Shown in pieces: positions 1 through 11,084 of a stretch of 64,000 nucleotides of DNA. The notes under the pieces are model-generated. The model had not been told where the DNA came from. It did not search any database and saw only the letters and a program-made list of their open reading frames with translations. Location: assembly GCF_001704295.1 (NCBI RefSeq), contig NZ_CP012334.1, positions 1,376,084-1,440,083 on the forward strand, written 5' to 3'. The first letter of the stretch is position 1; each line of letters starts with the position of its first letter. Made by a program: the position numbers and the translations under genes. The stretch comes from Bordetella sp. H567 (GTDB lineage Bacteria; Pseudomonadota; Gammaproteobacteria; Burkholderiales; Burkholderiaceae_B).

Positions 1-181
1 TCTGCTCCGATGGCGGCGCCTCCAGGAAGCTCAAATGCCGGCGTTCACGCGCAACGGAGTCCAATGCGCGCCGATAGCCGTCGATATGAGCGGGCGCGAT
101 CGGCAGGATCTGGTAGTCCGGGGACGGCCCCGCGGCCGCCGCGTCGGATAGGGCGCCGCGTGTGCGCTGCAATGGTTTCAT
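1..181 (-). CDS. GNAT family N-acetyltransferase, partial (N-terminal 60 codons)
   Basis: An ATG read on the minus strand from 181 opens a frame that stays open to the left edge, so only the first 60 codons are present. The segments DYQILPIAPAHIDGYRRAL and RERRHLSFLEAPP resemble the N-terminal strand, helix and substrate loop of GNAT acetyltransferases. The acetyl-CoA loop would lie outside the window. No strong ribosome binding site is visible. It is divergent from the large operon starting at 356. The family call rests on the N-terminus only, and the substrate is unknown. Confidence 0.65.
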   Translation of the reverse strand, partial: MKPLQRTRGALSDAAAAGPSPDYQILPIAPAHIDGYRRALDSVARERRHLSFLEAPPSEQ

Positions 182-355
182 GGTTGCCAGGATGGTGATA
201 CGGGCGTTTGCCGCATAGTACGCCGCGCAGGGGGCCGATGCGATCACCGGCGACCGCCTTATGGATGCCACTTTTGGATTTATGCCGTCGGCGTGGAATG
301 ACGCGATTGCATGTACGCACCGGGCGGCACGCCGTGCCCACGGCGTGTGCGGAGT

Positions 356-385
356 TTGACAATCGCGGGGCTGCAAAATTATAGT
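356..385 (+). promoter_or_regulatory. Sigma-70 promoter of the 603-9490 operon
   Basis: TTGACA at 356-361 and TATAGT at 380-385 are separated by 18 bp, nearly a consensus housekeeping promoter. The expected start is near 391-393, leaving an untranslated leader of about 210 nt before the ATG at 603. Between the GNAT start at 181 and 356 I see nothing recognisable. Confidence 0.7.
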
Positions 386-417
386 CCGTTCAACGATATG
401 ATGGTTCGATAAACGGA
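385..417. promoter_or_regulatory. 33-bp interrupted palindrome overlapping the -10 box and start site
   Basis: The arms TCCGTTCAACGA (385-396) and TCGATAAACGGA (406-417) are inverted copies with 10 of 12 positions matching, centred on 401. The site begins at the last base of the -10 hexamer and covers the predicted +1, a repressor position. Its size and symmetry would suit an IclR- or GntR-type dimer. No such regulator is encoded next to it in the window, so the regulator is unknown. Confidence 0.55.
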
Positions 418-602
418 ACAATCAGCAGAACAGTCTGACGAGCACAGTCAGGGGGATGCAGGGCGTGGCGGGCCGGGACGATGGCCCGCGTGACACCCGG
501 CGTCGATCCGGCCGGCAGGGGTATTGAACAAGCGCGGCTCGACACGCGCGGATGACGGCATCGGCCTGGCGCGGACCGGTGCATCGCACAGGAGACCAGC
601 GC

Positions 603-2003
603 ATGCATGCAACGCTTCCGGCGCAAGCCGTTTCGCCGCAAGACGCGGCACCTCCGCGGACGGCAGCCGCCGGGATGCCCACCGTCGCCGAGCAATGGGC
701 GGCATTCCTGCACGACACCCGCTTCGAGGACTTGCCCGCGGACATCGTTGCCCGCGCCAAGTCGCGGCTGCTGGATGCCCTGGCCACCGCGGTCGCCGCG
801 CGCGACCTGCCGGTGCCTGCCGTGGCGCGCCGTTTCGTGCAGGCCAACCGCGGTCCCGCCACGGTGATCGGCCATGCGGACACGCTGCCCACCGTCGATG
901 CCGCCTTCGTCAACGCAACCCTGGTGAACGGCTGCACCCATGACGATTTCCTGGCGAAGTCCCATCCGGGGGCGGTTGCTATCCCCGCCGCGATGGCACT
1001 GGGCGAAGCGCATGGCGTGGGCGGCGCCGAACTGCTGACCGCCATCGTGCTGGGCTATGACATCGTGGCGCGCGCCTATTTGGGATCGCCCGGCATGCTG
1101 CCCGCATTTCGCGGCACGGGCGTGGCCGGCGCGATCGGCGCGGCCGCCGCGGCAGGCAGGATGCTCGCGCTGGATCGGGCGCGGATGGTCAACGCCCTGG
1201 GCTGCGCGGCGATGTTCGCCTCCGGCTTCGGCGAAGGTTTCCGTTCCGGGACCATGGACGTCAAGCTGAACGTGGGCTGGGCCGCCCGTACCGGCGTATC
1301 GGCGGCCGAACTGGCCGCGGCGGGCGCCACGGCATCGCCGCTGGCCTTCGAAGGCGAGTCCGGCTACTTCCGCGCCTTCGGCCGAACGGCCGAGCACGCC
1401 GCCGAGGCCACGCGCGATCTGGGCAAGCGCTTTCTCATCGAGGACGTCGTTTACAAGGAACGGCCGGTATGCATCTTCGTGCAGACGCCGGTGCACCTGG
1501 CGCTGACGCTGAAGGCGCGGCACGGCTTCGACGCGGCCCGCATCGAGCGTGTGACCATACGCGCGCCATGGCTGACCCTGACCAATCCGGGCTACACCAA
1601 TGTGGCGCCGTACCAGACGCCGTTGAAAGCGCGCATCAGCGTGCGCTTTACCGTCGCGGCCGCGCTGCTGGGCCGTCCGGTGGACGAATACGCCTACTAC
1701 GACAACACCGCCGATGCCGACGTCCTGGCGCTGTCCGACCGGATCGAGCTGCTCGATCCGGCGCCGGGGCAGGACGGCCGCGTCGATCTCGAGGTGGTGT
1801 GCGCGGGCGCCTCGCACGCGATTTCCGGCCTGGAGATGGACAGCCTGACGCCGACCACCGACAAGATCATCGCCAAGTTCCGCCGCCTGACCGCGCCCAC
1901 CATGCCGGCAGGGCGAAGCGAGGCGTTGCTGGACATGGTGCTCGCGCTGCAGGACGTGCCGGACATCGGCGCGCTGACGGCCTTGCTGCGACCCGCCCAA
2001 TGA
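603..2003 (+). CDS. MmgE/PrpD family protein (2-methylcitrate-dehydratase-like)
   Basis: This 466-residue protein has the MmgE/PrpD fold, which includes 2-methylcitrate dehydratase, cis-aconitate decarboxylase and many uncharacterised cytoplasmic enzymes acting on carboxylic acids. The motif HDDFLAKSHPGAV at about residues 112-125 is characteristic of the active site, and the length matches the family. The start at 603 is chosen because AGGAG (590-594) sits 8 bases upstream; an in-frame ATG at 552 has no such site. It is the first gene of the operon. In catabolic operons with Bug proteins such enzymes are usually orphan PrpD homologues, so I do not assign prpD. The substrate is inferred to be a hydroxy- or unsaturated di- or tricarboxylic acid. 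Confidence 0.85.
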   Translation: MHATLPAQAVSPQDAAPPRTAAAGMPTVAEQWAAFLHDTRFEDLPADIVARAKSRLLDALATAVAARDLPVPAVARRFVQANRGPATVIGHADTLPTVDAAFVNATLVNGCTHDDFLAKSHPGAVAIPAAMALGEAHGVGGAELLTAIVLGYDIVARAYLGSPGMLPAFRGTGVAGAIGAAAAAGRMLALDRARMVNALGCAAMFASGFGEGFRSGTMDVKLNVGWAARTGVSAAELAAAGATASPLAFEGESGYFRAFGRTAEHAAEATRDLGKRFLIEDVVYKERPVCIFVQTPVHLALTLKARHGFDAARIERVTIRAPWLTLTNPGYTNVAPYQTPLKARISVRFTVAAALLGRPVDEYAYYDNTADADVLALSDRIELLDPAPGQDGRVDLEVVCAGASHAISGLEMDSLTPTTDKIIAKFRRLTAPTMPAGRSEALLDMVLALQDVPDIGALTALLRPAQ

Positions 2004-2008
2004 CCCAC

Positions 2009-2029
2009 GGGCCCCGGAGGCCGGGGCCC
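2009..2029 (+). promoter_or_regulatory. Perfect 9-bp intercistronic hairpin before the first Bug gene
   Basis: GGGCCCCGG (2009-2017) and CCGGGGCCC (2021-2029) form a perfect stem with a 3-nt loop, six bases after the PrpD stop and 26 bases before the Bug start. No T-run follows, so it is not a classical terminator. It may act as an mRNA stabiliser or processing site raising expression of the binding-protein gene. Confidence 0.5.
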
Positions 2030-2055
2030 ACCCACAACAATCAGGAGACACCCCC

Positions 2056-3018
2056 ATGAAACTGGCCAGCCTCGTGGCCGCGGGCGCTGCTGCGCTCGCC
2101 GTCGGCGCCGCCGCGCATGCCGCCTATCCGGACCATCCCATCCACGTCATCGTGCCGTTCCCGCCGGGCGGGTCCACCGACGTGGTCACGCGCATCGTCG
2201 TGGCCAAGGCCCAGGAGCTGCTGGGCCAGAACATCATCGTGGAAAACCGCGGCGGCGCGGGCAGCATCATCGGTTCGGACTATGTGGCCAAGGCCGTGCC
2301 GGACGGCTATACGCTGCTGGTCGGCCAGACCGCCTTCGCGGTGAACGCCTCGCTGCGCGAGAAACTGCCCTACGACACCGTCAAGGATTTCACGCCGATC
2401 GCGTTGATGGCCGATCATCCGGGTGTCTTCCTGGCCCAGTACACCAAGCCCTACAACACGTTCAAGGAATTCATCGCCTACACCAAGGCCAATCCCGGCA
2501 AGGTCGTGTATTCGTCCGCCGGCACCGGCAGCTGGCCGCATCTTGCCATGGCGATGCTGGCCAAGGACGCCGGGCTGCAGATGGTGCACGTGCCCTATCA
2601 GGGCACGGGTCCGGCCAAGGCCGACCTGATCGCCGGCCGCGTGGACGTGAAGATCGAGGCCTATGCCACGTCGATGGGCATGGTCAAGGACGGCAAGCTG
2701 AAGGTGTTGGCGGTGACCAGCGCGCAGCGCGATCCCATCCTGCCCGACGTGCCTACCATCGCGGAGCTGGGCTATCCCGGCTATGAGACGTCGTACTGGA
2801 TCGGCCTGCTCGGGCCCGCGAAGATGCCGCCGGACGTCACCGCCAAGCTGGAGAAAGTCTTCCTGCAGGCCGTGAACGATCCGGAGGTCAAGCAGAAGCT
2901 GGATGCGCAGACCATCCACCCGCATCCCCTGCCGGCCAAGGACCTGGAGGCGCTGATCCACAAGGAAATCGACAAGTGGGCGGCGGTCATCAAGGACAGC
3001 AACATCGATAAGCAATAA
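2056..3018 (+). CDS. Bug/TctC family periplasmic solute-binding protein
   Basis: This 320-residue protein starts with a Sec signal peptide (lysine then an Ala/Leu/Val core ending AAAHA at about residue 23). The Bug signature IVPFPPGGSTDVVTRIV follows, then PDGYTLL near residue 83. Bug proteins are Venus-flytrap receptors that bind carboxylates in the periplasm, either for TctAB-type transporters or as orphan sensors. CAGGAGA lies just upstream of the ATG. No tctA or tctB gene is in the window, so the membrane partner is encoded elsewhere or absent. The ligand is probably the acid handled by the flanking enzymes. Confidence 0.93.
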   Translation: MKLASLVAAGAAALAVGAAAHAAYPDHPIHVIVPFPPGGSTDVVTRIVVAKAQELLGQNIIVENRGGAGSIIGSDYVAKAVPDGYTLLVGQTAFAVNASLREKLPYDTVKDFTPIALMADHPGVFLAQYTKPYNTFKEFIAYTKANPGKVVYSSAGTGSWPHLAMAMLAKDAGLQMVHVPYQGTGPAKADLIAGRVDVKIEAYATSMGMVKDGKLKVLAVTSAQRDPILPDVPTIAELGYPGYETSYWIGLLGPAKMPPDVTAKLEKVFLQAVNDPEVKQKLDAQTIHPHPLPAKDLEALIHKEIDKWAAVIKDSNIDKQ

Positions 3019-3037
3019 GGCCGGAAAGGAGACCCGC

Positions 3038-3943
3038 ATGCAGCAGCGCAATGACACTCCGGCGTCCCCCGCCGCCGGCGGCAGGTTCGCGGACTACGCC
3101 GCGGCGCGCCGCGGCGCCGCACGGATGGCGGTGGCCCCCGGCGTGGATATCGCCTATGTGGTGGATGACTACACCGATGGGTGGAAGAACGCCCCTGTCG
3201 TGATGCTGCTGCACGGCGTCGCCGAGTCGGCGGAGGCCTTCATCGGCTGGGTCCCGCAGCTGGCGCGGCACTGCCGCGTCATCCGCGTGGACCTGCGCGG
3301 CCACGGCCTGTCGTCGCCGGTGGGCGAACACGACGCGCTGTCGATCGCGGACATGGCCGACGACATCGACACGCTGGCGCGGCGGATCGGCGCGCCCGTG
3401 CACGTGGTGGGCGCCAAGCTGGGCGCGCAGATCGGGCTGGAGCTGGCACAGCGGGCGGTGCCCTGGATGGCGTCGCTGACCTTGGCCGGCGTGCTGATTT
3501 CGCCCGGCGGCGCGCTGGGCAAATGGGTGCCCGAATGGATCGGCCTGATCGAGCAATCCGGCGTGGAGGGCTGGGCGCGCGCCACGATGCCGGGCCGCAT
3601 GGGCACGGCGCTGACGCCGGAGGGCATGGCCTGGTGGACGCGCTACATGGCCATGGCGCCGGCGGCCACGGTGAAGGCATGCATCCGCATGTTCCCGCGC
3701 CTGGCGGAGCCCGCGCGGCTGGAATCCATCGTCTGCCCTACGCAGGTCATCGTGGCGGTGCAGCCTGAGCAACCCGGTGCCTATGACCAGCGCCAACCCG
3801 TCGCCGAAGTGCGCCGCTGGCAAACCCGCATACCCGGATCGGCACTGGTCGAGCTGCAGGCCGATTCGTACCACATCGCCGCCACGCATCCCGACGCGTG
3901 CGCGGCCATCGCTCTACGTTTCATAGAAAGGATTTCATCATGA
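3038..3943 (+). CDS. Alpha/beta-hydrolase-fold protein lacking the nucleophile serine
   Basis: The 301-residue sequence shows the alpha/beta-hydrolase layout: oxyanion loop LLHGVAES (57-64), VDLRGHGLSS (84-93), nucleophile-elbow region VHVVGAKLGAQ (121-131), and a C-terminal DSYHIAATHP that would carry the catalytic histidine. In active hydrolases the elbow is G-x-S-x-G. Here it reads G125-A-K127-L-G129, with lysine in place of serine. The protein is therefore either non-hydrolytic (binding or lyase-like) or uses other chemistry. The stop overlaps the next gene as ATGA, indicating coupled translation. A ribosome site (GGAAAGGAG) precedes the ATG at 3038. Confidence 0.8.
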   Translation: MQQRNDTPASPAAGGRFADYAAARRGAARMAVAPGVDIAYVVDDYTDGWKNAPVVMLLHGVAESAEAFIGWVPQLARHCRVIRVDLRGHGLSSPVGEHDALSIADMADDIDTLARRIGAPVHVVGAKLGAQIGLELAQRAVPWMASLTLAGVLISPGGALGKWVPEWIGLIEQSGVEGWARATMPGRMGTALTPEGMAWWTRYMAMAPAATVKACIRMFPRLAEPARLESIVCPTQVIVAVQPEQPGAYDQRQPVAEVRRWQTRIPGSALVELQADSYHIAATHPDACAAIALRFIERISS

Positions 3944-4689
3944 TGGGATGGCGCGGCCGCATCGGCTTTCTGGTTCCTCCGGGCAACCCCACCGTCGAGC
4001 CCGAGATGCAGCAGTTGGTTCCCCGCGGAGTCTCCCTGCACTACACGCGCATGGTGGCCCATGGGCTGACCGGCGCGCATGCCGGCCAGGAAGACCGCAA
4101 TCGCACGCAGATCGAACACATACCGGAAAACGTCGAACTGCTGGCCATGGTCAAGCCGGGGGTGATCGTCATGGCGCATACCGCCACCAGCTACACCCTG
4201 GGCAAGCAGGGAGAAGCCGAACTGGTGGCGCGCATGGAAAAGCAGTACGGGATTCCCTTCATCACGGCCTTCGGCAGCGTGCTGGCGGCATTCCGGCACC
4301 TGGGGATAGAGCGCGTGGCCTATGCCACGCCCTATAACGAGCAGACCACGCTGCAGGGCAAGGCGCATCTGGAGTCCTACGGCATGAACGTGGTGGCCCA
4401 CGGCATCCTGCCCAATGTCGTGAACATCTATGAGGAGACGCCGGAACGCGCCTATGCGCTGGGCCGCCAGGTCGATCATCCGGACGCCCAGGCGCTGTTC
4501 CTGAGCGGCGTCGGCATGCCCACCGTGGATGCGATCAACCTGCTGGAACGCGACCTGGGCAAGCCGGTGATATCCAGCGCGACCGCGATGATGTGGAATG
4601 CCTTGCGCGTCATCGGCGTACGCGATGCGGCCGCCGAGGGCGGCCTGCTGCTCTCGGGTACCGCCGGCCCCATGGCCGCACGGGTTTAA
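3940..4689 (+). CDS. Asp/Glu racemase superfamily protein (maleate isomerase/arylmalonate decarboxylase-like) without cysteines
   Basis: This 249-residue protein begins with GRIGFLVPPGNPTVEPEM, typical of the maleate isomerase and arylmalonate decarboxylase branch of the Asp/Glu racemase superfamily. Those enzymes depend on one or two active-site cysteines. This protein contains no cysteine at all: the regions where they would fall read VMAHTATSY and LFLSGVGMPT. The start at 3940 overlaps the preceding stop (ATGA) and is preceded by AGAAAGGA. The fold is clear but the reaction is not; a binding role or cysteine-free chemistry is possible. It probably works with the neighbouring PrpD and alpha/beta-fold proteins. 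Confidence 0.8.
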   Translation: MMGWRGRIGFLVPPGNPTVEPEMQQLVPRGVSLHYTRMVAHGLTGAHAGQEDRNRTQIEHIPENVELLAMVKPGVIVMAHTATSYTLGKQGEAELVARMEKQYGIPFITAFGSVLAAFRHLGIERVAYATPYNEQTTLQGKAHLESYGMNVVAHGILPNVVNIYEETPERAYALGRQVDHPDAQALFLSGVGMPTVDAINLLERDLGKPVISSATAMMWNALRVIGVRDAAAEGGLLLSGTAGPMAARV

Positions 4690-4731
4690 TATTTTTCCTT
4701 CGGCGCGAGCCGCATCACACAGGATACCGGC

Positions 4732-5703
4732 ATGGTTCTCTACCTGAATGAATCGGACGTGCGTCAGCTGTTGACCATGTCCCAGGCGGTCGAAGAAGTG
4801 GAACGCGCGTTTTCCGCGCATGGCCGCGGCAAGGCAGTGGATGTTCCGCGCCGCCGCACACGGCAGCCCAGCGGGCATCTGCACATCCTGCAGGCCGCCG
4901 CGCCGGAGATCGGCTACATCGGCTACAAGGCCTATTACAACCGGCCCGGCAAGCCGCTGAATACCCTGCTGCACATGATGAACCACGAGCAGGGGAACAC
5001 CGAAGCCATCATCGAATCGGACTGGCTGGGGCGTATCCGCACCGGCGCCGCCACGGGTGTCGCGGCGCGCTACCTCGCCCGCAAGGATGCGCGCATCCTG
5101 GGCTTGTTCGGCTACGGCCGCCACGCGCGCACCCAGCTCGAGGCCGTCTGCACCGTGCGCGACATCGCCGAAGTCAAGGTATTCGGCCGCAACCAGGACG
5201 GCGTGCGCGCCTTCTGCGACGAGATGTCCCAACGCGTCTCGGCCCGTGTGCGGCCGGCGCAGTCGCGCGAGGAAGCCGTGCGCGGCTCCGACATCATCGT
5301 CACCATGACGCGCGCCGCCGAGCCGCTGTTCGACGGCCGTTGGCTGGAGCCGGGGCAGTTCGTCGCCGCCACCGGATCCAATGCGCTGGACCGGCGCGAG
5401 ATCGACACCGAAACCGTGCGGCGCGCGGACGTCATCGTGGTCGATTCCCGCGAGGTCGCGCAAGGCGAGTGCGGCGACCTGCTGCCCGCCTACGAGAACG
5501 GCTTGATCTACTGGGAGAACCTGGCCGACATGGGTGGCGTCGTCGCGGGCCGCTGGCCCGGGCGCACCTCGGACGCGCAGATCACGCTGTTCGAGTCGCA
5601 CGGAATGGCGGTGCAGGACCTGTACGCGGGCGCCGCCATACTGGCTGCCGCCCGCGAGCGCGGCATGGGCGTCGCCCTGCCGATGGGGCCGGCGGGGGGC
5701 TGA
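4732..5703 (+). CDS. Ornithine cyclodeaminase/mu-crystallin family protein
   Basis: This 323-residue protein belongs to the ornithine cyclodeaminase/mu-crystallin family, NAD(P)-dependent enzymes that act on amino acids or cyclic imines (cyclodeaminases, alanine dehydrogenase, ketimine reductases). A Rossmann motif ILGLFGYGRHART lies near residue 122, with VKVFGRN following as the second strand. TGAATGVAARYLARKD just before it is a family-typical region. It is the fifth gene of the operon, 42 bp after the previous stop, with CACAGGAT upstream of the ATG. Substrate specificity cannot be read from sequence; an imino- or keto-acid reductase role would fit the Ldh2-like neighbour. Confidence 0.88.
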   Translation: MVLYLNESDVRQLLTMSQAVEEVERAFSAHGRGKAVDVPRRRTRQPSGHLHILQAAAPEIGYIGYKAYYNRPGKPLNTLLHMMNHEQGNTEAIIESDWLGRIRTGAATGVAARYLARKDARILGLFGYGRHARTQLEAVCTVRDIAEVKVFGRNQDGVRAFCDEMSQRVSARVRPAQSREEAVRGSDIIVTMTRAAEPLFDGRWLEPGQFVAATGSNALDRREIDTETVRRADVIVVDSREVAQGECGDLLPAYENGLIYWENLADMGGVVAGRWPGRTSDAQITLFESHGMAVQDLYAGAAILAAARERGMGVALPMGPAGG

Positions 5704-5795
5704 TGCGTCACACGCATCAATCAACCGAATATTTGCGCTTTACCGGATAAGCGCGCTTGCGCATCATGCTCGCCGTGCCGCCTGAACCAGGCGGC
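5701..5795 (+). promoter_or_regulatory. Two dyads in the gap before the Ldh2-like gene
   Basis: TGATGCGT (5701-5708) and ACGCATCA (5712-5719) form a perfect 8-bp inverted repeat that includes the TGA stop of the preceding gene. A second perfect stem, GCCGCCTG (5777-5784) with CAGGCGGC (5788-5795), lies 30 bases before the next ATG. The first could be an operator for an internal promoter or an mRNA hairpin; the second looks like an attenuator-type hairpin without a good T-run. I do not see a convincing internal promoter. Confidence 0.4.
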
Positions 5796-5825
5796 GCTTC
5801 TGCTTTCAATCGGATGAGACGAGCC

Positions 5826-6878
5826 ATGACCGCGCCAGCACAAGAGAAAACCCTTTTCACCGAGGCGGAATTGACCGCCCTGGGAACCCGCGCCTTCGTC
5901 GGCCTGGGGCTGCCCGAGGCGGATGCCGCCGACGTGGCGCGCGTCCTGGTGCTGGCGGACCTGTTCGGCCTCTCCACGCACGGCCTGAGCCGCATCGAGT
6001 CGTACGGCGACCGCCTGCAGGTGCAAGGCATCAATGCCCGCGCCCGCGTGGCCACGCAAACCGTCGCGCCGGCCCTGCGCCTGGTGGATGGGGACAACGG
6101 CGTGGGCCCGCTGGTGGGCATGCACGCGCTGCGCGCCGCGATGGAGGCTGCCGAATCCTGCGGCGTGGGCGTGGCCTTCGCGCGAGGCAGCAATCACTTC
6201 GGCCCGATTTCGCCGTACGGCCTGATCGCCGCGCAGGCGGGCTTCGCCAGCATCATCGGCAGCAACGCCACCACGACCATCGCGCCCTGGGGCGGCAGCG
6301 ACGCCCGGCTGGGCAACAGCCCCCTGGGCTTCGGCGTGCCCAATCCCGGGGGCGATCCCTTCCTGCTGGACATGGCGATGAGCGTCGTGGCGCGCGCCAA
6401 GATCCGCAACGCGTTCAAGCGCGGCGAGGCCATACCGGATACCTGGGCCACCGATGCCGGCGGCCGTCCCACCACCGATCCCAAGGCCGCGCTGGATGGC
6501 TTCCTGCTGCCCATCGGCGGCCACAAGGGCTACGGGCTGGCGCTGCTGGTGGACATGTTCGCCGGCGTGCTTTCCAACGCCGCCTACCTGACGCATGTGA
6601 AGTCGTGGGTCGACGCGCCGGACGAGCCGCAGAACCTGGGGCACTTTTTCATCCTGATCGATACGCGCCGCCTGGGATCGACCCAGTGGCTGGCCGACCG
6701 GATGAACGATTTCGCGGCAATCCTGCACGACAGCCCGCCCACCGACCCCAAGCAGCCGGTCATCGTGCCCGGCGAGATCGAATTGCGCAAGATGGCGCGC
6801 CAGCGCCAGGAAGGCATCGCGCTGGACGCGGCCACCGTGGCGCTGCTGCGCCAGCACGCCGCGAAGGCGCCGGCCTGA
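5826..6878 (+). CDS. Malate/L-lactate dehydrogenase (Ldh2) family oxidoreductase
   Basis: This 350-residue protein belongs to the Ldh2/malate-L-sulfolactate dehydrogenase family, NAD(P)-dependent enzymes unrelated to Rossmann-fold LDH that interconvert 2-hydroxy and 2-keto acids or reduce cyclic imines (delta-1-piperideine-2-carboxylate). STHGLSRIESY near residue 50, SNHFGPISPYGL near 122 and PIGGHKGYGLAL near 233 are conserved family segments. The start at 5826 is taken because similarity begins there. Pairing with an ornithine cyclodeaminase-like protein suggests related imine or hydroxy-acid substrates. Confidence 0.87.
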   Translation: MTAPAQEKTLFTEAELTALGTRAFVGLGLPEADAADVARVLVLADLFGLSTHGLSRIESYGDRLQVQGINARARVATQTVAPALRLVDGDNGVGPLVGMHALRAAMEAAESCGVGVAFARGSNHFGPISPYGLIAAQAGFASIIGSNATTTIAPWGGSDARLGNSPLGFGVPNPGGDPFLLDMAMSVVARAKIRNAFKRGEAIPDTWATDAGGRPTTDPKAALDGFLLPIGGHKGYGLALLVDMFAGVLSNAAYLTHVKSWVDAPDEPQNLGHFFILIDTRRLGSTQWLADRMNDFAAILHDSPPTDPKQPVIVPGEIELRKMARQRQEGIALDAATVALLRQHAAKAPA

Positions 6879-6885
6879 GGCCGGC
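6869..6885 (+). promoter_or_regulatory. Hairpin with the stop codon in its loop
   Basis: GCCGGCC (6869-6875) and GGCCGGC (6879-6885) pair perfectly, and the 3-nt loop is the TGA stop codon of the dehydrogenase gene. As before the first Bug gene, a GC-rich hairpin without a T-run lies between an enzyme gene and a Bug gene. A role in differential mRNA stability is inferred. Confidence 0.45.
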
Positions 6886-6948
6886 CGATGGGCAGGCGGC
6901 GGGGGGTTCCTCCGCCGGCACGAACGTAAAAGAATGGGAGACACCCAA

Positions 6949-7923
6949 ATGCACAAGATCCTCGGCCGTCTGGCCCTGTTCGCGCTGGCGCTGACCGGCG
7001 TCGGCGCGCGGGCCGATACCTATCCCAGCAAGCCGATACGCGTCATCGTGCCCTACGTGGCCGGCGGCGCGGCCGATATCACGGCGCGCGTCATGGCGCA
7101 GAAAATGTCGATGAGCATGGGCGTGGCGCTGGTCGTCGAGAACAAGCCCGGGGCCAACGGCATGATAGGCACCGACTTCGTCGCCAAGGCGGCGCCGGAC
7201 GGCTATACCCTGCTGCTGGACGCCAGCGGCCCGCTGGTGGTCAATCCTTCGCTGTATGCGCGCAAGACGCCCTACGATCCGGTAAAGGATTTCGCGCCGA
7301 TATCGCAGATCGCCAGCTACCAGTACGTGGTGGTCGTTCCGCAGAAGTCGCCGATCCGCAGCCTGGACGACCTGATCGCGCAGGCCCGCGCGCATCCGGG
7401 CCAGCTCAGCTATGGATCGGCCGGCGTGGGCGCCGGTGGCCATCTGGCCGGCGAACTGCTGGCCCTGATGACCAATACGCAACTGGTGCATGTGCCGTAC
7501 AAGGGCAACGCCCAGGCCTTGACGGACGTGCTGAGCGGCCAGCTGTCCTTCACCTTCGATACGGTGGTTACCTCGGCGCCGCAGATACAGGCCGGCCGCT
7601 TGCGCCCCTTCGCGGTGTCGGGCCCGCATCGCGCCGCCGTATTGCCCAATATCCCCACCATGGAAGAGTTGGGCTATAAAGGCTTCTCGATCACCCAGTT
7701 CCAGGGCCTGTTGGCGCCGGCGGGTACCGATCCGAAGATCATCGCCCGGCTGCACGATGAAGTCGTCAAGGCATCGCGCGATCCGGACGTGGTGCGCAAG
7801 CTGGTCACCGAAGGCGGCAACGACATCGTGGCCGGCACGCCGGATGAGTTCGCCGCGCAGATCAGCTCGGACCTGGTGCTGTACCGCAAGCTGATCGAGG
7901 ATGCCAGGATACCCAAGCAATAA
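6949..7923 (+). CDS. Second Bug/TctC family solute-binding protein of the operon
   Basis: This 324-residue protein starts at the ATG at 6949, after GGGAG (6936-6940). The signal peptide spans about 22 residues and ends GARA. RVIVPYVAGGAADITARVM is the ligand-loop signature and PDGYTLLLD follows near residue 83. It is only distantly similar to the Bug at 2056, so the operon may recognise two ligands or hold diverged duplicates. The stop is 16 bp before the next gene. Confidence 0.93.
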   Translation: MHKILGRLALFALALTGVGARADTYPSKPIRVIVPYVAGGAADITARVMAQKMSMSMGVALVVENKPGANGMIGTDFVAKAAPDGYTLLLDASGPLVVNPSLYARKTPYDPVKDFAPISQIASYQYVVVVPQKSPIRSLDDLIAQARAHPGQLSYGSAGVGAGGHLAGELLALMTNTQLVHVPYKGNAQALTDVLSGQLSFTFDTVVTSAPQIQAGRLRPFAVSGPHRAAVLPNIPTMEELGYKGFSITQFQGLLAPAGTDPKIIARLHDEVVKASRDPDVVRKLVTEGGNDIVAGTPDEFAAQISSDLVLYRKLIEDARIPKQ

Positions 7924-7939
7924 AACCCAGGGCGAACCC

Positions 7940-8710
7940 ATGTACCAACTCGATGTTCTGATCAACGGCTATCCCGGCCGCAGCCTGTTCCATGGCAGCC
8001 TGGGCTGGAGCACCACGACACTGCTGCGCGGCGACGGCCGCAATATCCTGGTGGACGTCGGCGCCTTCGGCGCGCGCCATCTGCTGAAGAAGCAGCTGAC
8101 CGAATTGCGCATGGATGCCGCCGACATCACCGATGTCGTGCTCACGCATGCGCACTACGACCACTCGGTGAATTTCACCTTGTTCCCCAACGCCACGGTG
8201 TGGATCGGCGACCGCGAACTGGAATGGGCCGCGGCCCAGCCGCCCGGCTTCGATCCGCTGCCCGAGCTGTATGTCCGCGAGCTGACGGTCTCGCCGCGCG
8301 TGCGCCGCATCGCCGACGGCGAAAGTTTCCTGCCGGGCTTCACGGCGATCGTCGCGCCTGGCCACACGCCGGGGCATCTGCTTTTCACCGTATCGGGCGC
8401 GGCGCAACCGCTGCTGTTCACCGGCGACGCCGCGAAAAACCGCGCCGAACTGCTCAGCATGACGGTCAACGACACCTACGATATGCAGGTCAGCCGTGCG
8501 ACGCTGGAACTGATCTGGGCGACATGGCGCCGTCATCCCGATACCCTGCTGATCCCCGGACATGACCTGTGCATGCGCCTGGACGACAAAGGCGAACCCG
8601 TCTATGTCGGCGAACGGCGCGCCGCCATGAATGCCTGGTTCGGCGAAAACCTGGAACCTACCGTCATCGACCTGTGCTGCGGCGGCGAAACGGCCCGCTA
8701 CAGCGCCTGA
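7940..8710 (+). CDS. Metallo-beta-lactamase-fold hydrolase
   Basis: This 256-residue protein carries the metal-binding motif THAHYDHS near residue 68, a second histidine in VAPGHTPGH near 140, and FTGDAA near 164 for the bridging aspartate. These support a dinuclear zinc hydrolase of the lactonase/glyoxalase II type. There is no signal peptide, so it is cytoplasmic. The start at 7940 follows AGGGCGAA. Related proteins include lactonases and N-acyl-homoserine-lactone hydrolases. In this context a lactone- or thioester-opening step is more likely than antibiotic resistance. Confidence 0.85.
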   Translation: MYQLDVLINGYPGRSLFHGSLGWSTTTLLRGDGRNILVDVGAFGARHLLKKQLTELRMDAADITDVVLTHAHYDHSVNFTLFPNATVWIGDRELEWAAAQPPGFDPLPELYVRELTVSPRVRRIADGESFLPGFTAIVAPGHTPGHLLFTVSGAAQPLLFTGDAAKNRAELLSMTVNDTYDMQVSRATLELIWATWRRHPDTLLIPGHDLCMRLDDKGEPVYVGERRAAMNAWFGENLEPTVIDLCCGGETARYSA

Positions 8711-8752
8711 TCCATTTGTCCACCGCCACGGTGCATCCACGAGAGATTCGAC

Positions 8753-9490
8753 ATGCCGCTTGATCCGCAAATCCTAGCCAAGTTCATTCCGACCGGCCGC
8801 CTGCGTGCGTCCATCAATGTCGGCAATCCCATCCTGGCGCGCCGCGACGACGGCCCCGGCGGCGCGGCGGGCGTGTCCGTCGACCTGGCCCGCGCGTTCG
8901 CCAAGCGGCTGGGCGTGGAGTTGGAATTGGTGGTGTTCGACAGCGCAGGCAAATCGGTGGACGCGGTGACGGCCGAGCAGGCGGACATCGGCTTTTTCGC
9001 CATCGATCCCGTGCGCGGCGCCGGAATCAATTTCACCGACGCGTATGTGCTGATCGAAGGCGCCTACCTGGTGCGCGAGGATTCGCCGTTGCGCGATCGC
9101 GCCGAAGTCGATCGTTCCGGCACCCGCGTCACCGTGGGCAAGGGTAGCGCGTATGACCTGTACCTGACGCGCGAGCTGAAGCAGGCCGAGATCGTGCGCG
9201 CCCCGACTTCGCCGGCCGTCGTGGACTTCTTCCTTGCGGAAAAGACCGAGGTCGCCGCCGGGGTCAAACAGCAGCTGGAAGCCGATATGCAACGCGTGCC
9301 GGGCCTGCGCCTGCTGCCGGGCAGCTTCATGGTGATCCGCCAGGCGATGGGCATGCCCAAGGGCCGAGGCGACGCGGCGGCCAATGAACTGCGCGCCTTC
9401 GTCGAAGAAATGAAGGCCAATGGTTTCGTGGCCGAGGCCCTGAAGCGCCACAAGATCGAAGGCGCCGCCGTCGCTCCCGCATCGGCTTGA
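8753..9490 (+). CDS. Family-3-type solute-binding domain protein without a signal peptide
   Basis: This 245-residue protein matches the amino-acid-type (SBP_bac_3) binding fold: LRASINVGNPIL at the start, GVSVDLARAFAKRLGVELELV near residue 40, then IGFFAIDPVRGAGINFTDAY. Such receptors are normally exported or lipid-anchored, but this one begins MPLDPQILAKFIPTGR with no hydrophobic signal. It therefore looks cytoplasmic unless the start is wrong, and I see no upstream in-frame candidate encoding a signal. It may be an intracellular ligand-binding protein or an enzyme of the cyclohexadienyl-dehydratase type. It is the last gene of the operon. Confidence 0.75.
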   Translation: MPLDPQILAKFIPTGRLRASINVGNPILARRDDGPGGAAGVSVDLARAFAKRLGVELELVVFDSAGKSVDAVTAEQADIGFFAIDPVRGAGINFTDAYVLIEGAYLVREDSPLRDRAEVDRSGTRVTVGKGSAYDLYLTRELKQAEIVRAPTSPAVVDFFLAEKTEVAAGVKQQLEADMQRVPGLRLLPGSFMVIRQAMGMPKGRGDAAANELRAFVEEMKANGFVAEALKRHKIEGAAVAPASA

Positions 9491-9508
9491 CCGTTACGGC
9501 GCATGAAG

Positions 9509-9541
9509 GCCGGCAGGGCGTGTGCCCCGCCGGCTTTTTTT
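9509..9541 (+). terminator. Rho-independent terminator of the first operon
   Basis: GCCGGCAGGGC (9509-9519) pairs with GCCCCGCCGGC (9524-9534), with one A/C mismatch and a GTGT loop, followed by seven T (9535-9541). It lies 19 bases after the last stop and closes the 603-9490 operon. Confidence 0.9.
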
Positions 9542-9717
9542 ATTTCGGGACGACTCGCCCGGTGCGAGGCGCCCTCCAGCGCGAACGAGCCCTGGCTTCC
9601 GCGGACGACGCCCGCCTCGATGGTGCATTGATCTTGCTCATTCTTGGTGCATGAACTTGGACCTCAGGCGATGCAGAATAGTCATGCCATTTCAATTTCA
9701 GGTAGGAGTACCCAGGC

Positions 9718-10134
9718 ATGAACGTTCGCCACATCGCCGCCGCCCTCTGCTCGACCGCATTGCTCGCCTGGGCTGGCCCCTCGCTAGCGCATGGGGAGGG
9801 TGACAAGGTCACGCCCAATTTCCAACAAGCCATCCCCAATATCCCTGGAAAGTCCCTGATTGCGGTAGAGGTGGACTATCCGCCCGGCGGCGCTTCCGTA
9901 CCGCACGTGCATGCCAAGTCGGCGTTCATCTATGCCTATGTCGTATCCGGCGCGGTTGAATCCAAGGTCAACAATGGCGAGACCCGTGTCTACAAGGCGG
10001 GCCAGAGCTGGTCGGAGCCGCCGGGCGCAAGCCATCCGGTCAGCCGCAACGCGAGCAAAACCGAGCCTGCAAAGTTGCTGGCGGTCTTTGTCGTCGATAC
10101 CAGCGATAAGGAACTGACAACGCCGACCAAGTAA
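9718..10134 (+). CDS. Exported cupin-domain protein
   Basis: This small protein (138 residues) has a signal peptide ending about residue 24 (GPSLA/HGEG). A single cupin barrel follows: PHVHAKSAFIYAYVVSG supplies the metal-binding histidines of motif 1 and EPPGASHPVSRN lies in motif 2. It is expected in the periplasm. A GGTAGGAG ribosome site precedes the ATG. The next gene begins 35 bp downstream, so the two are probably co-transcribed. The substrate is unknown; similar cupins are often annotated as possible quercetin-dioxygenase-like or sugar-binding proteins without proof. Confidence 0.85.
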   Translation: MNVRHIAAALCSTALLAWAGPSLAHGEGDKVTPNFQQAIPNIPGKSLIAVEVDYPPGGASVPHVHAKSAFIYAYVVSGAVESKVNNGETRVYKAGQSWSEPPGASHPVSRNASKTEPAKLLAVFVVDTSDKELTTPTK

Positions 10135-10169
10135 TCTAAGAGGGGGGAGCCCACAGGAAAGGAGTAAAC

Positions 10170-11084
10170 ATGAAAATCTTTATCGCAGGCGCCACTGGCG
10201 TCATCGGTCTTCCCCTGGTGCGTTCCCTGGTGACGCTCGGGCACGAGGTCGTGGGCATGACCCGCGGGGGCCATGGCCTGTCGGCGCTCAAGGAAGTGGG
10301 CGCGTCGGCAACGGCCGTCGATGCGCTCGACGCGGCAGCGGTTCGCGAAGCCGTGGGCCATGCCCGGCCGGACGTTGTGATCGACCAGTTGACCTGGTTG
10401 CCACGCACACCCGCCGAGGTCTTCGCGTCCTTGCCCCAGGACACCCGTCTGCACGAGGTGGGCGGCGCCAATCTGCTCGCGGCGGCACAGGCGGCCGGGG
10501 CCAAACGGTACATCATGCAGTCCCGTGGCTTTTTCCTGGAGGGTGCGGGCGGCCAATTGGCGGACGAGTCGGCAAGGATGCGGAGCGACGCGCCCGGCGT
10601 GGTGGGCGATTCCACGCGTGTGTTCGACGCCTATGAGGCCAATGTCCTGGACGCCGCGCTGGAGGGCGTCGTGCTGCGCTACGGCTTTTTCTATGGGCCC
10701 GGCACCTGGTACCGCCCCGACGGTGCGGTCGCGGACCAGCTGCGTGCCGGTACGGCAGGCATACTGGGCGAGGGCAACGCGCCCTGGTCTTTCGTCCATA
10801 TCGACGATGCGGTGGCGGCCACGGTCGCCGCGCTGGATGGACCGGCCGGCGTCTACAACATCGTCGACGATAGCCCGCTGCCGGCGGGCGAGCACCTTCG
10901 TGCGCTGGCGCGCTGGGTTGGCGCGGACGAACCGAAACAGATCCTCGATCCCGCGGAGCTTCAGGCGATCGGGCCGGAAGCCCTGTATTACCACACGCGG
11001 CTTTCCGGCGCGTCCAATCTTCGCGCGAAGTCGCTGCTTGGATTCAGGCCCCGCCGCCTCTTGTGGCTGCAGCCGGGCACGTAA
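10170..11084 (+). CDS. NAD(P)-dependent epimerase/dehydratase family protein
   Basis: This 304-residue extended-SDR protein starts with the dinucleotide motif IFIAGATGVIGLPLVRSL. DQLTWLPRTP and YIMQSRGFF follow in the regions expected for the cofactor and substrate strands. The classical YxxxK catalytic pair is not obvious, so it may be an atypical NAD(P)-binding or reductase-like member. AAAGGAG lies upstream of the ATG. It is convergent with the LysR gene that ends at 11123. The function is unassigned. Confidence 0.82.
   Translation: MKIFIAGATGVIGLPLVRSLVTLGHEVVGMTRGGHGLSALKEVGASATAVDALDAAAVREAVGHARPDVVIDQLTWLPRTPAEVFASLPQDTRLHEVGGANLLAAAQAAGAKRYIMQSRGFFLEGAGGQLADESARMRSDAPGVVGDSTRVFDAYEANVLDAALEGVVLRYGFFYGPGTWYRPDGAVADQLRAGTAGILGEGNAPWSFVHIDDAVAATVAALDGPAGVYNIVDDSPLPAGEHLRALARWVGADEPKQILDPAELQAIGPEALYYHTRLSGASNLRAKSLLGFRPRRLLWLQPGT

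Follow-up and report, generated by a model that had tools for sequence, protein, structure and literature searches.

Two adjoining gene modules in Bordetella sp. H567 and the replaced active-site residues of an alpha/beta-hydrolase-fold and an AMDase-family protein

Organisation of the locus

The window analysed here is a stretch of 64,000 nt from contig NZ_CP012334.1 of Bordetella sp. H567 (Burkholderiales). Between positions 603 and 9490 it carries nine open reading frames on one strand, named g1 to g9 (Table 1). An original prediction, made from the sequence without database searches, had described them as one nine-gene operon for the uptake and breakdown of an acid. Comparison with related genomes indicates that the block probably consists of two neighbouring units, g1-g5 (module 1) and g6-g9 (module 2). 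It also places two overlapping genes of module 1, g3 and g4, in clades with replaced active-site residues. The protein encoded by g3 has lysine at the nucleophile elbow of an alpha/beta-hydrolase fold, and that encoded by g4 belongs to the arylmalonate decarboxylase (AMDase) family and lacks both cysteines of the active site.

The nine genes and the order of their families were recovered by open reading frame and Pfam calls as originally proposed, except for the naming of g4 and a detail of g9. From g1 to g5 the genes are separated by 52 nt, 19 nt, an overlap and 42 nt, and from g6 to g9 by 70, 16 and 42 nt. The gap between g5 and g6 is the largest in the block if g6 starts at the ATG at 5826, as taken here (122 nt); the frame is open back to a TTG at 5757, from which the gap is 53 nt. 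For g4, an ATG at 3940 or at 3943 can serve as the start. Downstream of g9, where a terminator had been placed at 9509-9541, a strong fold was found, although a consensus terminator scan of positions 1-10,500 did not list it.

Table 1 Features of the g1-g9 locus (window coordinates)
Feature	Position	Strand	Assignment and basis
Sigma-70-type promoter, module 1	356..385	+	TTGACA-18-TATAGT; 11/12; upstream conservation
Inverted repeat GTTCGATAAACGGAAC	404..419	.	Similar repeat upstream of g1 in 6/6 loci; candidate operator for IclR-family regulator
g1	603..2003	+	MmgE/PrpD family (dehydratase/isomerase/epimerase superfamily); PF03972 2.3e-47
g2	2056..3018	+	Bug/TctC periplasmic solute-binding protein; PF03401 2.8e-75; L003 copy 95% identical
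g3	3038..3943	+	Alpha/beta-hydrolase-fold protein, Lys127 at nucleophile elbow; PF00561 4.5e-16
g4	3943..4689	+	AMDase/maleate-isomerase/EutA family, His79 and Gly189 for two Cys; PF17645 8e-29
g5	4732..5703	+	Ornithine cyclodeaminase (OCD)/mu-crystallin family NAD(P)-dependent imine reductase or amino-acid dehydrogenase; PF02423 7e-57
g5-g6 junction (module 1/module 2 boundary)	5704..5825	+	Holds stem-loop 5775-5797
g6	5826..6878	+	Ldh2 family dehydrogenase, module 2; PF02615 1e-111; synteny
g7	6949..7923	+	Bug/TctC solute-binding protein, module 2; PF03401 1e-69
g8	7940..8710	+	Metallo-beta-lactamase (MBL)-fold hydrolase, module 2; PF00753 (Lactamase_B) 1.6e-20
g9	8753..9490	+	SBP_bac_3 family, signal peptide not visible, module 2; PF00497 1.4e-13
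Intrinsic terminator	~9505..9538	+	-26.1 kcal/mol, z -3.4, T run after

Conservation of gene order

The genes g1-g5 are found in the same order in five relatives from the same family, namely Achromobacter aloeverae (locus L003), Bordetella genomosp. 13 (L004), Candidimonas humi (L005) and the loci L035 and L036. Their proteins are 63-95% identical to those of the window, and g6-g9 are absent there. DNA similarity to these loci stops at or before position 5705. Similarity to eight module-2 loci, in turn, begins at 5851-5879 and is over by 9490. These limits place the junction of the modules between 5705 and 5851. The stem-loop at the junction has a 10-bp stem (-20.7 kcal/mol, z -3.2) and no clean T run; as a class, terminator-like sites are not in excess (6 versus 5.3 in shuffles).

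Module 2 was compared in 16 of the 29 g9 loci outside the window, partly picked for known module-2 neighbours. The order Bug-Ldh2-Bug-MBL-SBP (solute-binding protein) is present in ten of these regions, where g6-g9 are 69-83% identical to the window genes; three more hold only Ldh2 and SBP, and the last three SBP only. All ten full copies have an extra Bug gene upstream of g6. It is missing in the window, where module 1 is located instead. Across all 29 loci (about 3.7 kb each), g8 and g7 lie beside g9 in ten and g6 takes that place in three. Judged by this synteny, g6-g9 are a second, separately conserved catabolic unit, located directly downstream of module 1 here. Both modules occur in three other genomes (G120, G170 and G123), on different contigs in each.

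The claim of a single system is not supported by this comparison, since g6-g9 are found on other contigs than g1-g5, and so scattered, in the three genomes with both modules. The idea of a coherent uptake and breakdown unit can be kept for g1-g5, where synteny, promoter conservation and a probable regulator speak for it. A true pathway of nine co-transcribed genes acting on one substrate would agree with the common strand, with a single sigma-70 site in positions 1-10,500 and with the lack of a clear terminator between the modules. In addition, two genomes have an MBL gene with 51-54% identity to g8 in the vicinity of lysine-elbow genes related to g3 (L206:4756-5529 and L207:11136-11912), in L206 together with an Ldh2-like gene (39%), so that protein types of both modules meet elsewhere too; this hints that the chemistries can be linked. 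The separate contigs, the extra Bug gene of all full module-2 copies and the stable stem-loop at the junction argue against such a pathway, which is disfavoured by synteny and which we regard as improbable.

Homologs of g9 match at E 1e-20 or better in 140 of 200 genomes of the family. The earlier description of g9 as resembling a solute-binding protein holds for its family, SBP_bac_3, but no signal peptide is visible. In some genomes (G116 and G096), the homologs have an open frame of 246 aa that matches residues 1-243 of 245. As such frames leave no room for a signal peptide, g9 is probably located in the cytosol, where it may serve as an enzyme or sensor rather than in transport.

Further catabolic genes were seen around module 1. 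An L-2-hydroxyglutarate-oxidase-like FAD enzyme and a 4-sulfomuconolactone-hydrolase-like amidohydrolase are encoded near or downstream of it in L004 (11741-13827), L035 and L036; both score below the model cut-offs and neither adjoins the module in the window. A further PrpD-like gene and a further Bug-like gene, judged by their translated start only, precede the window by about 8.8-7.4 kb and 5.3-4.3 kb (L095).

Promoter, inverted repeat and candidate regulator

The promoter originally predicted upstream of g1 is well supported. It is the only sigma-70-like site (≥9/12) in positions 1-10,500, where shuffles average 1.4 such sites, and 2000 sequences of 602 nt simulated with a first-order model never reached its score. 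The hexamers are identical in L003 and L004, and L005 has TTGCCA-18-TATAAT, i.e. the promoter is kept upstream of g1 in three of five relatives. A chance promoter is ruled out by this conservation.

Of the repeats resembling GTTCGATAAACGGAAC, that of L036 has two perfect arms of 8 bp, and that of L005 is degenerate in its left half. In the genome of the window, GTTCGATAAACGGAAC is the sole match at ≤1 mismatch; this uniqueness says little by itself, because a reversed control pattern gave two chance matches. A divergent gene belonging to one cluster adjoins g1 in all five relatives. In L004, it matches IclR-family models (KdgR, BhcR, PcaR), all below their cut-offs. The IclR-family counterpart in the genome of the window (G000) is located at C1:461999-462754 (L247:6994-7767), about 0.9 Mb from GTTCGATAAACGGAAC. 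In every one of the five relatives, this gene finds its best match in the neighbour of g1 (55-59%, against no more than 32% for the next), and the divergent gene of L004 in turn has this gene as best match in the window's genome (58%; next 38%). The divergent genes of L003, L005, L035 and L036, which were compared with this gene and one further paralog of the same genome, are nearer to the former. The simplest reading is that the gene at C1:461999 is the relocated regulator of module 1 and that the operator was retained, with putative contact between the two. Module 1 is probably under IclR-family control.

Lysine at the nucleophile elbow of g3

The g3 protein passes the Pfam model of the alpha/beta hydrolase fold (PF00561) with 59.7 bits (gathering threshold 25.8). 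Its five syntenic orthologs have VGAKLG in place of GxSxG, and in g3 itself the elbow serine is gone. In 399 genomes of the order, the lysine elbow is present in 19 of 19 further homologs with 37-42% identity; these are all the loci that were returned and read, besides the window's, from a longer list of places. It persists in more distant members of the family, with identities as low as 32%, and serine occupies the elbow in all ten homologs read at 26-31%. In a phylogenetic tree, 33 lysine rows and 10 serine rows are parted by a single branch (support 95/96); duplicate rows of the same gene had been removed beforehand, and the tree output warns that long branches meet there. The window protein and 32 relatives of its tree group thus have lysine instead of a serine, aspartate or cysteine nucleophile. 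Among 398 genomes across the phylum, all 29 homologs examined (of 32 places outside the window) have serine, so that within these samples the lysine form is found only in Burkholderiales.

The HG motif and the final histidine of the triad are kept. Invariant positions in an alignment of 19 rows include D44, W49, H59, G60, E63, D85, R87, K127, W179, T183, R187, W199, W200 and H279. In fold family by sequence, HG motif and final histidine, g3 resembles 3-oxoadipate enol-lactonase, BchO and NicD, from which its group differs by the lysine at the nucleophile position. A profile search of the PDB was passed by 275 sequences; among the 60 matches listed, the two shown as alignments both have serine. 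No plasmid record matched g3 at E 1e-20. The available part of a 2024 survey of alpha/beta hydrolases covers serine, aspartate and cysteine nucleophiles as well as serine-less variants, lysine not being among them (PMC11878206). Searches of open-licence PMC papers listed none on a lysine-elbow alpha/beta hydrolase.

For the genomic context, 33 loci were picked for the lysine-elbow motif, leaving aside 3 of 36 profile matches without it; several of the 33 represent the same ortholog from related genomes. A Bug gene lies within 2 kb in 29 of them and on the same strand in 27, a linkage to be weighed against the large number of Bug genes in these genomes. PrpD genes are found within 3 kb in 14 of the 33 loci, or in 9 of 28 outside module 1. 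Since genomes that host lysine-elbow genes (G210, G203, G335, G484, G455 and G397) hold from 26 to at least 138 MmgE/PrpD matches each, this linkage is moderate evidence only. In the same six genomes, the PrpD expansion occurs alongside many Bug and lysine-elbow alpha/beta genes. Other neighbours are a short-chain dehydrogenase/reductase with an aldehyde dehydrogenase, an FMN-dependent 2-hydroxyacid dehydrogenase, and MR/MLE and MBL proteins.

A cysteine-free clade of the AMDase family

The g4 protein had been called Asp/Glu-racemase-like. This name was given up, as Amdase (PF17645) is the best Pfam match with 101 bits, the Asp/Glu racemase model PF01177 stays under its threshold (18.6 versus 31 bits; family as described in the available part of PMC12661438), and the cysteines are absent. 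An AlphaFold2 model built from four sequences (moderate pLDDT of 63) has AMDase 3dtv as its best structural match (Foldseek, 2e-11). Both the sequence match and the predicted fold thus resemble the AMDase/maleate isomerase/EutA family. The scores for the specific models are below cut-off, with 92.8 versus 225 bits for AMDase (NF052327) and 68 versus 318 bits for EutA (TIGR02990).

AMDase is described with a catalytic Cys188 and Gly74 in the motifs ILLSCGGL and LMGTSLSF, in the part of the source consulted (PMC4996985). The g4 motifs AHTATSYT and LSGVGMPT place histidine and glycine in the G74 and C188 columns, and g4 therefore has neither the G74/C188 nor the two-cysteine pattern. This holds for a clade of 17 proteins, the window's and 16 others that are 57-85% identical to it: HTA[TS]SY and LSG[VL]GMPT are present in 17/17, histidine and glycine fill both cysteine columns throughout, and the two cysteines of maleate isomerase are missing in every member. 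In the 27 homologs outside the clade, cysteine is found at the first position in 23 and at the second in 26. In the alignment, each of 43 loci was represented by its best homolog, and the clade is split off with support 100/100. The counts come from 200 genomes of the family and 399 of the order, which are overlapping drawn samples, and from three named loci, two of them also in the sample; for each genome, scores were computed for the top few candidates only.

One AMDase-family homolog outside the clade, L085 (G455:C134), has also lost both cysteines and has other residues instead. The solved Rhodococcus protein 4ix1 lacks both as well, again with different residues. Loss of the cysteines is therefore not unique to the g4 clade, and it is the His/Gly pattern that is a fixed clade trait. 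Thr80 and Tyr131 of g4 align with Thr75 and Tyr126 of AMDase, which we take to serve in its carboxylate (dioxyanion) site; both are invariant in a four-row alignment.

Elsewhere, g4-clade genes adjoin AcnX, PrpD plus Bug, a thiamine pyrophosphate enzyme, or TctB-TctA; for L039-L043 and GC-rich loci, the neighbour lists comprise homology matches and named frames only. At L037:10337-12138, both AcnX subunits are encoded beside a g4-clade gene, the large subunit resembling cis-3-hydroxy-L-proline dehydratase below the equivalog cut-off. This neighbourhood points to a hydroxy-imino or hydroxy-amino acid as substrate class. On plasmids, g4 matches 27 records, all with <60% identity, and the 15 listed are annotated as maleate isomerases, racemases, AMDases or hypothetical proteins.

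Coupling and selection of g3 and g4

In the window, as in 5/5 relatives, the g3 stop codon and the g4 start codon overlap within the sequence ATGATG. Both frames are open in all six loci. The dN/dS ratios (NG86) of g1-g5 against the five relatives range from 0.07 to 0.41 (25 comparisons), with 0.20-0.41 for g3 and 0.10-0.26 for g4. The earlier statement that the pair is kept intact is supported by the conserved overlap and by purifying selection. Its description as active-site-depleted is correct as far as the elbow serine and both cysteines are gone; since both substitutions are fixed across clades, "replaced" is preferred here. Decay of g3 and g4 towards loss of function would account for the missing textbook residues. 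Such decay is extremely improbable and is ruled out at the sequence level, because the dN/dS values, the open frames and substitutions common to several genera indicate replacement under purifying selection. The replaced residues suggest unstudied chemistry rather than dead enzymes.

In nic gene clusters, the deformylase NicD adjoins the maleate isomerase NicE. A comparable function of g3 and g4, as N-formylmaleamate deformylase and maleate isomerase in the catabolism of a pyridine acid, was considered on account of the same fold pair, its adjacency, and the deformylase 4l0c and maleate isomerase 4fq5 among the PDB matches. It would also suit a Bug gene in the module, as Bug proteins can bind quinolinate according to the available part of PMC11452294. 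This candidate was rejected as very improbable: the elbow serine and both cysteines are absent, and Pfam calls recognised no nic ring-cleavage gene among the five genes.

Proposed route of module 1

The g1 protein matches PF03972 with 161.7 bits and PF19305 with 59 bits, both above 32.1, and reaches 50 bits against a cut-off of 950 for the NCBIfam equivalog of 2-methylcitrate dehydratase. Its nearest solved relatives are the IRG1-like protein of B. subtilis and iminodisuccinate epimerase. For g5, the best solved relative is a delta1-pyrroline-2-carboxylate reductase (6t3e, 4.6e-52), and all 13 OCD-type models matched score below cut-off. It has asparagine where the alanine dehydrogenase 1omo has aspartate; the comparison was made to 1omo and not directly to an ornithine cyclodeaminase, whose catalytic aspartate we assume to fall in this column. 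Both g2 and g7 pass PF03401.

We tentatively read g1-g5, with slightly less than even confidence, as one catabolic operon under IclR-family control for a carboxylic acid captured by the Bug protein, with Lys127 of g3 replacing the serine and with g6-g9 as a separate unit. The g2 protein would capture the acid, which probably is a hydroxy acid or an imino acid. Once it is in the cytosol, g4 would isomerise or activate it, using its AMDase fold, a partial carboxylate site, and histidine rather than cysteine as acid/base. The PrpD-family protein g1 would remove or move water and the OCD-family protein g5 would reduce the resulting imine. In g3, Lys127 with the conserved His279, Glu63 and Arg187 would take over from the serine nucleophile. 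With these residues, the protein would be suited to amine-catalysed conversion of a keto acid, for instance its decarboxylation or retro-aldol cleavage, and we infer that g3 most likely would act as an amine-catalysed lyase or decarboxylase, not as a hydrolase.

On a wider scale, the lysine-elbow proteins could be a catalytic alpha/beta-hydrolase class undescribed in the literature searched, in which lysine (as Schiff base or general base) would have replaced serine and lyase or decarboxylase activity the hydrolysis. The class would be confined to one Burkholderiales clade and associated with Bug proteins in operons for the degradation of acids; its partner in module 1 would be an AMDase-fold enzyme in which a single histidine has taken the place of two cysteines. 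Taken as a whole, this extended proposal is on the unlikely side.

Module 1 has parallels in known systems. Orphan TctC genes neighbour betaproteobacterial AMDases, as stated in the part of PMC4996985 consulted, which agrees with the Bug gene of module 1. The orphan Bug/TctC catabolic clusters of Burkholderiales likewise combine Bug, PrpD and carboxylate enzymes, and no TctAB was recognised among the nine genes; the five-gene set with lysine-elbow and His/Gly proteins sets module 1 apart from them. In the EutABC proposal, the hydroxyl group of hydroxyectoine is removed by inversion, dehydration and imine reduction (PMC5924519, available part). Module 1 recalls this division of labour with its AMDase-family protein (g4), dehydratase-type protein (g1), OCD-family reductase (g5) and nearby uptake genes. 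It differs in that g1 is PrpD-type and not threonine-dehydratase-type, that no EutD or EutE was recognised, and that g4 (68 versus 318 bits) and g5 (162 versus 472 bits) are far under the eut cut-offs.

Several points weigh against the proposed route. The promoter was not found upstream of g1 in L035 or L036, and in the window no divergent IclR-family gene lies beside g1, i.e. the regulator is not adjacent here. The structure model of g3 (pLDDT 44) is too poor for a fold search, and the closeness of Lys127, Glu63 and His279 is therefore taken from their fold positions only. As g1 differs from IRG1-type proteins at several aligned positions, which presumably have catalytic roles, its dehydratase activity is not assured. 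Ser76 of the AMDase carboxylate site corresponds to Ala81 in g4. The EutABC analogy draws on a scheme that the review itself calls biochemically unevaluated. Finally, a g4-clade gene lies beside 5 of 6 g3 orthologs outside the window (≥63% identity), the exception being G193, which has a g3 ortholog without g4, but g3 lies beside only 5 of 16 g4-clade genes outside the window; one of the other 11, L039, is at a contig end. The co-occurrence of g3 and g4 suggested earlier as a check is thus asymmetric, and the pair is real in one module without the two being obligate partners.

An alternative that we consider rather unlikely is that g3 and g4 are pseudoenzymes forming a ligand-binding or scaffold pair, for example a cytosolic sensor or an activator of g1 or g5, made 1:1 by translational coupling. 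Loss of the standard nucleophile and of both cysteines would fit, as would the start/stop overlap kept at all six loci. In contrast, particular reactive residues have taken the place of those lost and are fixed across clades, and g3 has invariant histidine, glutamate and arginine. Each group is also found in the absence of the other and next to a range of enzymes, which makes an obligate scaffold pair unlikely.

Implications

In g3 and g4, the residue on which the chemistry of a well-known fold depends has in each case been exchanged throughout a clade, and the two genes overlap in one operon. The conserved five-gene set, with its palindrome and candidate regulator, makes the substrate of module 1 findable; the inducer of the regulator and the ligand of the Bug protein are expected to be one compound or two closely linked ones. 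If the proteins are active, they would add a chemistry based on lysine to the alpha/beta-hydrolase fold and one without cysteine to the AMDase family, and either would be of interest for biocatalysis.

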